Origin: Seleniivibrio woodruffii
GTDB lineage: Bacteria > Chrysiogenota > Deferribacteres > Deferribacterales > Geovibrionaceae
Direction: 5' to 3'
Length of the DNA stretch: 64,000 nucleotides
Assembly: GCF_029267515.1 (NCBI RefSeq)
Contig: NZ_JAJUIS010000004.1
Coordinates: 62,001-126,000 of the forward strand
The position numbers were made by a program, and so were the translations under genes. Position 1 is the stretch's first letter, and each line of letters begins with the position of its first letter. Positions 28,827 through 64,000 of the stretch are shown here, piece by piece. The notes beneath the pieces were generated by a model that was not told the origin of the DNA, ran no database searches, and saw only the letters and a program-made list of their open reading frames with translations.

Positions 28827-29214
28827 GACGACGTAATGCGCCACACTCCCTCCTGTTGGCGGTTAGATGCAAGCAGGGCAAGGAAGGCTTTCGATTTAGA
28901 AGGGGGAGTGTACACTGATGTACATGACCCGAGAAATTGAAATCTGACGATGTAATGCGCCGCACTCCCTCCTGTTGGCGGTTAGATGCAAGCAGGGCAA
29001 GGAAGGCTTTCTATTTCGAAGGGGGAGTGTACACTGATGTACATGACCCGAGAAATTGAAAACTGACGACGTAATGCGCCGCACTCCCTCCTGTTGGCGG
29101 TTAGATGCAAGCAGGACAAGGAAGGCTTTCTATTTCGAAGGGGGAGTGTACACTGATGTACATGACCCGAGAAATTGAAAACTGACGATGTAATGCGCCG
29201 CATATAACCGTCAA
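28827..29214. repeat. Family A structured repeat, 119-bp tandem array ending in one full element
   Basis: Three near-identical units start at 28827, 28946 and 29065, a period of exactly 119 bp, with a partial fourth from 29184. Only the last unit has the closing right arm, making a full 121-bp element at 29094-29214. Arms TTGGCGGTTAGATGC (29094-29108) and GCATATAACCGTCAA (29200-29214) pair at 13 of 15 positions. An inner stem is TTTCTATTTC/GAAATTGAAA, and the apical stem is GTACA/TGTAC. The period is not a multiple of three and there are no unique spacers, so it is neither coding nor CRISPR. Confidence 0.9.
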
Positions 29215-29251
29215 TAAAAAAGCCCGCACAGAAACGAGTCCATGCGGGCTT
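29214..29251 (-). terminator. Intrinsic terminator of the liv-cyclophilin operon
   Basis: On the minus strand the stem AAGCCCGCA/TGCGGGCTT is followed by T6. It lies about 40 bp after the cyclophilin stop codon and directly abuts the family A element. Confidence 0.88.
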
Positions 29252-41889: not shown

Positions 41890-42022
41890 AAATTTAGCAT
41901 TTAGATGCAAGCAGAACAAGACGTTTGTGAGGAAATTCCCGCAGTGTACATTGAAGTACATGAGGAGAATTTCTGAACGAAGAACGAAGTTATGCGCCGC
42001 ATATAAGCGCTAAAAGCTAAAA
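41890..42022. repeat. Family A structured repeat, single copy
   Basis: The full element spans about 41893-42014 (122 bp). Arms TTTAGCATTTAGATGC (41893-41908) and GCATATAAGCGCTAAA (41999-42014) pair at 13 of 16 positions. The inner stem GAAATTC/GAATTTC (41932-41938 with 41967-41973) is perfect. The apical stem is GTGTAC/GTACAT. Conserved blocks are AAGCAGAACAAG and TATGCGCCGCATATAAGCG. It lies between the atp terminator and the glycosyltransferase start. Confidence 0.85.
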
Positions 42023-50329: not shown

Positions 50330-50376
50330 GGAAAAAAATAGAAACTTAAAAGAATAGAGACAGAATGTTACACTTA

Positions 50377-50499
50377 ATTGCTTTTTAGAACCGAGCAGTT
50401 CAAGGCGGACGATGAAAAATCAACGAGCATACATTAAGAGTATGTGAGGCAGATTTTTCTGAGGACAACGAAGAAATGCGAAGTGTTATAAAAGGCAAT
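50377..50499. repeat. Family A structured repeat, abutting a stop codon
   Basis: The element is 123 bp. Arms ATTGCTTTTTAGAAC (50377-50391) and GTTATAAAAGGCAAT (50485-50499) pair at 13 of 15 positions. The inner stem GAAAAATC/GATTTTTC (50414-50421 with 50452-50459) is perfect, and the apical stem CATAC/GTATG is perfect. Conserved blocks GAGCAGTTCAAGG and AATGCG are present. It ends 1 bp before the stop codon of the minus-strand MBL hydrolase. Confidence 0.85.
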
Positions 50500-50500
50500 A

Positions 50501-51310
50501 TTACAGGATCATGCCGTCGTATGCTACTACTGTATTTGGAAATAACCTTCTTGCAAGTATCTGCATTTCATCAAGCATAATATCGTCGTAATCGGGGTTA
50601 TGGTGTGCCATGACCAGATTTTTCACTTTGGCTTTTTTCGCAAACTCAATTCCCTGAATATACGTCGAGTGCCCCCAGCCTATTTTGCTCATAAGCCCGT
50701 TACCGCCCATATATTCTTCAGGATAGTAAGTTGTATCATATATCATATAGTCGCACCCATATGCGAATTCTATAAGGAAATCGTCAACAGGCGTTCCGTG
50801 CTCAAAGTCGGATGTATAGAGTATGCTCTTCATGGGAAAAACTATTTTAAACATAAGCACGCCGTCGGGATGGTTGCCTTCGGCAGAATGTATCTGTATG
50901 TCGCCGAATCTGAACTGGTCTCCGCCTTCGATGAGGTTCAGCTTTATCTCAGCCCGCAGCTTGGATTTTGGAACAGGAAAAAAAGGAGGATTGAAAAGCA
51001 CGTCGAGAATATCTGTTGAGTGCAGGGTCTCCTTGTTTTCCAGATAGATGTTTATTTTCTTTTTGGGGTTATAAAAAGCCTGAAATATGGGTACGCCGAC
51101 AATATGATCCCAGTGGAGATGGGACAGAAAGATATGAAATTCCTCAAAGTTGTCGTATTTGTTGAGGTTCATTATGCCTGTACCGCCGTCGAATATGATA
51201 CAGGTTTTATCGTCAACAGGTGCCATGAGACAGGTAGTGTTTCCGCCGTATTTAACAAATTTCTGTCCTGAAACCGGCAGTGTGCCTCTGGTGCCCAGCA
51301 GATAAAGCAT
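50501..51310 (-). CDS. MBL-fold metallo-hydrolase
   Basis: This is a metallo-beta-lactamase-fold hydrolase of 269 residues, similar in layout to RNase Z/phosphodiesterase-like members. The metal motif HLHWDH (His64, His66, Asp68, His69) is intact; further ligands are likely in EGNHPDG, TSDFEH and MAHHNPDYDD. It opens LLGTRGTLPVSGQKFVKYGGNTTC. Its start overlaps the stop of the RsbW-like ATPase gene by 1 bp, so the two are made together. The substrate is unknown; a cyclic nucleotide phosphodiesterase is possible. Confidence 0.85.
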   Translation of the reverse strand: MLYLLGTRGTLPVSGQKFVKYGGNTTCLMAPVDDKTCIIFDGGTGIMNLNKYDNFEEFHIFLSHLHWDHIVGVPIFQAFYNPKKKINIYLENKETLHSTDILDVLFNPPFFPVPKSKLRAEIKLNLIEGGDQFRFGDIQIHSAEGNHPDGVLMFKIVFPMKSILYTSDFEHGTPVDDFLIEFAYGCDYMIYDTTYYPEEYMGGNGLMSKIGWGHSTYIQGIEFAKKAKVKNLVMAHHNPDYDDIMLDEMQILARRLFPNTVVAYDGMIL

Positions 51311-57528: not shown

Positions 57529-57540
57529 CACGGATAAATG

Positions 57541-57622
57541 AGACTGCCGCGTCAGCCTGACGGCTTCCTCGCAGAGACGGATATTTGTCTTCGCGGGGAG
57601 CATATGCGACGCGGCGATCTCG
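57541..57622. repeat. Dispersed hairpin repeat, family B, copy 3 (longest)
   Basis: The outer arms AGACTGCCGCGTC and GACGCGGCGATCT pair almost fully. The inside holds the TTCCTCGCAGAGACG core and the returning TTTGTCTTCGCGGGG. It lies between the M3 peptidase and the convergent sulfotransferase-like gene, and may act as their terminator. Confidence 0.75.
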
Positions 57623-57631
57623 TATTTTATC

Positions 57632-62735: not shown

Positions 62736-62793
62736 GGGACTGCTCCACCCCTGCGGGGTTCGCAGAGACGTTTTTATGTCTTCGCAAGAAACG
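62736..62793. repeat. Dispersed hairpin repeat, family B, copy 4
   Basis: This has the ACTGCTCCACCCC block, the GTTCGCAGAGACG core and the returning ATGTCTTCGCAAG. It is followed by GCCTAAG as in copy 1. The stretch 62794-62866 shows nothing else recognisable. Confidence 0.7.
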
Positions 62794-62866
62794 CAGCGCC
62801 TAAGCGATCTGCTCCCTTAGGCATTAATATATTGTACTGATAATTCTATGTGGTTTAGATTGCTTC

Positions 62867-62914
62867 GTCAACCTGTGGTTTCCTCGCAAAGACGTCATTC
62901 TTCACGTGAAATGC
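62867..62914. repeat. Dispersed hairpin repeat, family B, copy 5
   Basis: This has AGATTGCTTCGTCA and TCCTCGCAAAGACG with a partial return TTCACGTGAAA. It runs into the left arm of a family A element. Confidence 0.7.
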
Positions 62915-63031
62915 TCCGAACCGAGCAGTACAAGGAAGGCTACCCGAGAGGGCTGCGAGCATACATATAAAGTATGTGAGCGGTTCCGAGGGAAAACTGA
63001 CGCAGTAATGCGACTCATATAAGCGGCAATA
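62905..63031. repeat. Family A structured repeat, abutting a stop codon
   Basis: It has conserved blocks GAGCAGTACAAGGAAGGC (from 62923), the apical stem CATAC/GTATG, AAACTGACGCAGTAATGCG, and right arm CATATAAGCGGCAAT. The left arm pairs poorly, probably because a family B repeat overlaps it. The element ends with GGCAATA (63025-63031), directly before the stop codon of the minus-strand TPR gene. Confidence 0.8.
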
Positions 63032-64000
63032 TCAGCTGACGGCGGCGAGGTTCTTCGCAACCAGCTTAGTATACTCATGCTCATCGCCCATTATTTCTCT
63101 GTAGATATCATATGCGCTTGAAAGAAACTCTTTCGCGTCGTCCCTTTTTCCTATTCTGTAAAGAAGTTCGCCGAGATTGTTCATTGCCGCGGCAGCGGAA
63201 ATGCTCCTTTCACCGCCTATCTCTTTTTTGATCTCAAGAGCCTTTTCATAATACTCCTGCGCACGCTCGAACTGTCCCATACGGGATGTGATAAATCCCA
63301 TATTATTAAGCCCTACGGCGGTCTTTTCGTGTTTGGAACCGAACACTTTCTCGTATATCTGGAGTGCCTTGAAATAGTAGGGCTCCGCGTTTTTCAGATC
63401 GCCCATAGCATATTTAAGCTGTCCGAAGTTAGTGTATGAAACTGCGGTGCTGGGGTGGTTTGTTCCGTATATGTTATGTTTGATGTTCAGAGCCTCCGTG
63501 TGCATGGTCTCTGATTTTTCAAACTCTTTAACCTTCTGGTAGGCAACGGCAAGGTCGTTCGCAGCGGCTGCTGTCATGCGGCTGTTTTCGCCGTATATTT
63601 TCTTTGTTTTGCTGATGAGGTCTTCGTAAAGTTTCACAGCTTTACGACCGTTCCCGTTTTTGAAAACTATCTGTGCGTAGTCGCCGAGGCTTTTGACAGC
63701 CTCTTTGCTCATTGCACCCATCTTTTCGTTCTTAACGGTTGTAAGTTTATGATAGATAAGCGCTGCTTTTGCTATCTGCCCTGCCGCGCTGTATATTGAC
63801 GCCATGACCTCGTCCGCTTCAAGGCGCGCCGCGTCTTTAACATCAAGCGTTTTGTCGTATATCTCCTCCGCCTCGCTGAGGTTTTTCAGAGCGCTTTCCC
63901 TGTCCCCTGCAACGTGATAGAGTTTTCCGAGTTTCAGCACGCTGTCCGCATAATCCGCACTTTTTTTGCCGTGAAATTTCTCCCGTATCTCAAGCCCCTT
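63032..64000 (-). CDS. TPR-repeat protein, N-terminus outside the window
   Basis: This is a tetratricopeptide-repeat protein; the frame is open to the window edge (KGLEIREKFHGKKSADYADS precedes the first GTG at 63940), so at least 322 residues are encoded. It contains seven or more repeats of about 42 residues, in the kinesin-light-chain-like spacing, for example YTNFGQLKYAMGDLKNAEPYYFKALQIYEKVFG and LNNMGFITSRMGQFERAQEYYEKALEIKKEIGG. Such arrays mediate protein-protein contacts. Without the N-terminus I cannot say whether it is exported or linked to another domain. Confidence 0.85.
   Translation of the reverse strand, partial: KGLEIREKFHGKKSADYADSVLKLGKLYHVAGDRESALKNLSEAEEIYDKTLDVKDAARLEADEVMASIYSAAGQIAKAALIYHKLTTVKNEKMGAMSKEAVKSLGDYAQIVFKNGNGRKAVKLYEDLISKTKKIYGENSRMTAAAANDLAVAYQKVKEFEKSETMHTEALNIKHNIYGTNHPSTAVSYTNFGQLKYAMGDLKNAEPYYFKALQIYEKVFGSKHEKTAVGLNNMGFITSRMGQFERAQEYYEKALEIKKEIGGERSISAAAAMNNLGELLYRIGKRDDAKEFLSSAYDIYREIMGDEHEYTKLVAKNLAAVS

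Follow-up and report, generated by a model that had tools for sequence, protein, structure and literature searches.

The 64,000-nucleotide stretch of Seleniivibrio woodruffii DNA analyzed here (the window) contains two palindromic elements that each run up to the stop codon of a minus-strand gene. The first, with a type A interior, occupies positions 50376..50500 on the plus strand (R1 covariance model, 111.8 bits, E 3.6e-28; also supported by exact BLAST and by its fold). Its left outer arm (50377..50388, plus strand) pairs in the predicted fold with its right outer arm (50489..50500, plus strand), which is flush with the TAA stop codon (50501..50503, minus strand) of a metallo-beta-lactamase-fold (MBL) gene (ORF 50501-51310, minus strand, PF12706). 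The second, with a type B interior, lies at 62906..63031 on the plus strand (R1 model, 98.6 bits), and its right outer arm (63020..63031, plus strand) is flush with the TGA stop codon (63032..63034, minus strand) of a TPR gene (ORF 63032-63940, minus strand, PF13424). The ORFs were called with a simple script, and their start positions are approximate. In this second copy, the left arm is not complementary to the right arm and another repeat adjoins it on the left; its orthologues in two congeners, G001 and G004, have both arms. The initial annotation had located both elements to within 1 to 2 bases and had described both as ending in GGCAATA immediately before the stop codon, which can be read directly in the sequence (50494-50500 and 63025-63031). 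It had also called the two abutted genes unrelated, as their domain assignments confirm, and homology between the MBL-fold and TPR genes is therefore rejected as the source of the shared offset.

Two other occurrences in the window are not stop-flush. A third copy (41892..42015, plus strand; R1 model, 94.9 bits) lies 57 nt from the stop codon of an ATP synthase epsilon-like gene (PF02823), beyond that gene's terminator, and a tandem array with a 119-bp period spans about 28827-29216 on the plus strand, its copies being placed at 28866..29216, with both arms present only in its last unit (29092-29216). The internal units of the array have no right arm, its place being taken by a CTCCCTCC junction; in the congener G003, this site is occupied by one copy only, whose interior differs. 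As for the shared heptamer, GGCAATA is a frequent right-arm ending across the family, and the host copies that carry it (50376, 62906, L112:12326, L108:10357, and L106:8805) are followed by a stop codon after 0, 0, 0, 0, and 2 nt, respectively. It is simply a common right-arm ending of the element family.

The element is an imperfect palindrome of ~125 nt that is dispersed in about 55 copies through the 2.83-Mb host genome. It consists of outer arms of about 9 to 12 bp, conserved mismatches with short helices, a variable middle stem, and an apex made of a 6-bp stem with a loop; the core is asymmetrically mismatched, and this too is conserved. There are two interior types, A and B, and tandem arrays also occur. 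BLAST with the first copy found about 25 places in the host genome, and R1, a covariance model built from 17 copies, gave 58 matches there at E ≤ 10. With the same model, matches at E ≤ 0.1 numbered 56 in G003, 54 in G004, and 42 in G001, all congeners, with only 2 in G002. The model also matched genomes of another genus (21 to 22 matches in G011 and 5 in G009) and of another family (44 in G028), with a few matches in other Deferribacterales. Of the 51 Deferribacterota genomes, G000, G001, G003, G004, G011, and G028 are rich in copies, and G002, G005-G008, and G010 have few or none. A scan of 84,980 species for the type B core pattern returned matches only in Seleniivibrio and in Deferribacteraceae UBA6793, and the family is so far known only from Deferribacterales. 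The 64-kb window, which holds several copies, gave no Rfam match at the gathering threshold, and we found no description of the family in the literature on Deferribacterota. Searches for the core on plasmids and phages gave no credible match; a single match in the IMG/VR scans lay inside a coding sequence and was judged a coincidence. At two identical places in G023 (L069 and L077), a shorter relative of the element sits just upstream of a tRNA-like sequence, in a context that looks like an rRNA-operon spacer.

The initial annotation had proposed site-specific insertion at gene ends and had named scattering at random distances from stop codons as the outcome that would speak against it. We compared the 41 complete host copies with intergenic points drawn at random from these loci, and random distances were not what was found. 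The right arm lay within -5 to 5 nt of a converging stop codon in 15 of 41 copies, against an expected 1.6% (P = 5e-17), whereas the left arm did so in none of the 41. Measured to the nearest converging stop codon, the right arm fell at -5 to 8 nt in 17 of the 41 copies and at 17 to 57 nt in eleven more, and 14 of the 41 start right after the terminator-like hairpin and T-tract of the converging gene. About 70% of copies are thus found where a converging gene or transcription unit has its 3' end. The gene-end part of the proposal thus holds genome-wide. There is no single fixed target sequence, however, because the flush stops include TAA, TAG, and TGA of unrelated genes and 14 of 41 copies follow a terminator T-tract. 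Stop adjacency was seen again in G009 and G011, where the arms reach ≤15 nt into the called gene. In the compact genome of G028, the elements occupy gaps between operon genes, in both orientations relative to the genes, with the right arm running over the upstream gene's stop codon or abutting the Shine-Dalgarno sequence of the next.

The element strand is the folding strand, since T.G pairs far outnumber A.C pairs on it (110 versus 25) and the predicted DNA energy is lower on it in 42 of 43 copies. The gene that ends at the element is encoded on the opposite strand, so that the folding strand is antisense to it. The element strand is also locally C-rich, in 53 of 55 host matches and 19 of 20 matches in G003, while the coding orientation near host copies is biased only about 57:43. 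Taking local GC skew as a proxy for the direction of replication, as we infer it to be, the consistent C-richness of the element strand means that orientation follows replication. In G028, whose stretches are too short to weigh on this point, the element strand was C-rich in 15 of 27 copies. One locus of G004 (L258, contig 6, 232659-232937) departs from this rule of orientation, with two oppositely oriented copies separated by about 30 bp.

Hairpins that stand directly after a stop codon, fold preferentially on one strand, and lie in leading-template orientation invite comparison with the attC sites of integrons, which fold on the bottom strand and show a leading-template bias in chromosomal integrons (PMC8946536). 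Preferential one-strand folding, as in attC sites, was found here in those 42 of 43 copies, and the folding strand lies on the leading-strand template as in chromosomal-integron attC sites (PMC8946536). The element differs in having no integrase, no attC boxes, and no place in a cassette array: a search of 31 genomes for the integron integrase (TIGR02249) gave no match above the cut-off, the boxes RYYYAAC/GTTRRRY were present on either strand in 0 of 41 copies, and the elements are dispersed singly behind unrelated core genes. That they are integron-type attC sites, or a dispersed attC cluster, is scarcely credible.

REP elements and BIMEs mobilized by a Y1 transposase (TnpA-REP, or RAYT) are also short extragenic palindromes that occur in tens of copies near gene 3' ends, a description that fits the 58 host matches. 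Their biology is tied to the lagging strand (PMC6006769), the replication-linked orientation seen here is what single-strand transposition predicts (PMC6006769), and the two kinds of repeat likely have single-strand DNA biology in common. Spread by such a transposase is nevertheless very improbable, given that a search for Y1_Tnp (PF01797) found no match in the element-rich genomes G000, G001, G003, G004, and G028; the element is also about 125 bp long and has copy-specific, target-matched arms. Seventeen equal-scoring Y1 (IS200-type) transposase copies lie on one strand of contig 2 in G025, a genome without the element. A preference for terminators is shared with group IIC introns, which insert downstream of terminator stem-loops (PMC7923331), but the core of the element is a simple palindrome, and the window gave no match to an intron-like RNA family. 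We do not claim membership in the attC, RAYT-type REP, or group IIC intron families.

Occupancy of particular sites varied among the genomes. At the stop codon of the MBL gene there is a type A copy in the host, an A+B tandem in G001, a type B copy in G004, a decayed copy in G003, and a copy with unrelated arms in G011, which belongs to another genus; the site is empty in G002 and G007. The TPR site is occupied in the host, G001, and G004 and empty in G002. At the stop codon of a gene that we take to be groEL-like from its Gly/Met-rich C terminus, G009 and G011 have copies with unrelated arms. Stop-flush placement thus recurs at the same stop codons across species with different elements or arms, and G004 has copies at sites where the host has none. 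Between the host and G003, most of the elements examined are orthologous, which gives no sign of recent transposition in Seleniivibrio and so weighs against a mobile element. In 13 of 14 unswapped pairs, the element has diverged less than the adjacent gene (mean, 4.0% versus 10.6%), and in other host/G003 pairs the interior has been exchanged and the arms kept. Low divergence together with interior exchange points to constraint, conversion among copies, or both.

Insertion differences between the host and G003 were considered as polymorphism of the element and rejected, being due to a second, unrelated repeat. A repeat of the GAGATCGC..TCGCGAAGACG..GCAGTCTC type (~75-165 bp), found at about 62740-62900 in the window and at L153, L156, and L160-L162, differs in presence between orthologous sites of the host and G003, and in many places it borders the palindromic element on its left. 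Another dispersed repeat (~90 bp), at about 57537-57630 in the window, has dozens of matches in G001, G003, and G004.

In an alignment of the relatives' copies (A3), which was fitted to the structure and is to that extent biased in its favor, 91.7% of cells pair, compared with 74.3% in shuffles, double changes occur in 24 of 30 pairs, and the covariation score is 0.445, compared with 0.18 when shuffled and ≤0.12 with the partners slid. Strong covariation, tolerance of G.U pairs, and the low divergence of the elements relative to adjacent genes are all consistent with a functional structured RNA or 3'-end element that was dispersed long ago and is under selection, with compensatory substitutions, its stop-flush placement arising from a function at mRNA ends or in antisense control. 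We regard this explanation as improbable. The strand that folds runs antisense to the abutting gene, 14 of 41 copies lie beyond that gene's terminator, orientation tracks GC skew and not transcription, the G028 copies face both ways relative to the genes, and the arms mirror codons of the target, as described below. Much the same evidence leaves unsupported the suggestion in the initial annotation of a functional link with translation termination and the 3' untranslated region, since copies flanked by a terminator fall outside the transcript of the gene, the best-folding strand is antisense to the gene, orientation tracks replication, and the operon-gap elements of G028 occur in both orientations to the genes. 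No support was thus found for reading the element as an attC site, a RAYT-driven REP, or an element acting in cis on translation termination.

Mean identity among the G028 copies was 83% for cores and 54% for arms, yet each arm paired with its own partner at 8.2 of 9 positions, against 5.3 in cross-copy comparisons (0 of 20000 permutations). The arms of G009 and G011 behaved in the same way (7.3 versus 4.0; 0 of 20000 permutations). A fixed terminal repeat, which we had considered, fails in G028 and in G009/G011, where the arms are copy-specific. The arms of Seleniivibrio have a partial consensus (TTGGCG/TTGCTG), which suits element-borne arms as well and counts against an explanation by target copying.

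In three insertions, the right arm is recognizably what would have been preexisting target sequence, with the left arm as its inverted copy. All three are in G011 and involve, among others, genes that we take to be trmFO and hisD from reading the translated proteins. At trmFO, the right arm holds the last codons, CAT TAC AAA, and the stop codon; the corresponding His-Tyr-Lys is conserved in the protein of G007, which has no insertion and has four further residues that are missing in G011, and the left arm is the inverted repeat of this right-arm stretch at 11 of 12 positions. At hisD, the outer right arm, GAAGAC, encodes Glu-Asp, the end of the protein in related genomes, and is mirrored in the left arm. 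At L219, the AGGAG ribosome-binding site that precedes an ATG forms the right arm and is again mirrored in the left arm. At one site shared by the host and G004, the arm includes the stop codon, and where this codon differs between the two genomes (TGA against TAA), the opposite arm differs to match. A comparison of L250 with L107 (G004/host) counts against target origin, the right arm matching the empty sequence by two bases at most. Insertion into palindromes already present in the target is rejected, since it is conserved codons of coding sequence that the arms mirror.

A left arm that copies the right flank in inverted form would equally arise if a palindromic repeat inserted near gene ends and had its arms produced, and then maintained, by later template switching during replication at the base of the hairpin, which would overwrite one flank with the other in inverted orientation. 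Such switching is known both to generate hairpin stems and to repair them, and in its products, as here, stems come from an inverted copy of adjacent sequence (PMC8794818). The arms of the element differ in flanking one dispersed, conserved core and in their near-fixed length: medians are 11, 12, and 13 pairs in three lineages (the 3-bp end of the core included), where a chance process should give variable lengths. Such a process should also leave some copies without arms, but matched arms are present in every one of the 27 G028 copies, and the mismatches of the core are conserved and not corrected. We therefore consider growth of the palindrome after insertion unlikely, though a serious competitor.

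We lean toward reading the element as a nonautonomous mobile palindrome that integrates at the ends of genes and whose second arm copies about 10 nt of target in inverted form. The element (~125 bp) settles at the 3' boundary of genes, either flush with the stop codon or directly after the terminator T-tract, and lies antisense to the abutted gene, with the folding strand, in Seleniivibrio, on the C-rich strand. The right arm would be target that was already there, be it the end of a gene, a stop codon, or a ribosome-binding site, and the left arm would be made at insertion, when the folded single-stranded element snaps back and copies about 10 nt of target. The timing of copying at insertion, the single-stranded intermediate, and an enzyme acting in trans are all presumed in this scheme, whereas the placement, the orientation relative to GC skew, the folding preference for one strand, the matching and uniform length of the copy-specific arms, and the target identity of three right arms were observed. 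Searches for a mobilizing enzyme, which covered Y1 transposases and the integron integrase, identified none for the element. Among the possible routes, snap-back at insertion is the simplest, given that arms of standard length are already present on copies whose cores are similar.

ERIC, RPE, and other palindromic MITEs are intergenic imperfect palindromes of unknown mover that are described as having element-borne ends. They are of similar size to the present element, but we know of no description of target-matched arms for them. DNA transposon-derived MITEs share element-borne terminal inverted repeats among their copies; here, the arms have a partial consensus in Seleniivibrio but are copy-specific in G028 and G009/G011, and, by eye, and with no close empty site as a reference, no direct target-site duplication was seen at the flanks. 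More tentatively, and short of calling it probable, we propose a new mode of insertion, in which a palindrome joins a single-stranded gene-end target and primes a snap-back copy of ~10 nt of that target.

Covariation within a repeat family can stem from insertion or template switching and not from selection on RNA, a caution that applies to such families. Dispersed palindromes are common in bacteria, and the manner of their spread is mostly unknown. If the proposed mode of insertion is true, each insertion would be framed by an inverted, not a direct, duplication of the target that lengthens the element's own hairpin. The target-copying reading would account for the position of such repeats against stop codons and terminators, and because the family seems to log its own insertion, copy by copy, as an inverted copy of the target, the mechanism would be directly testable.
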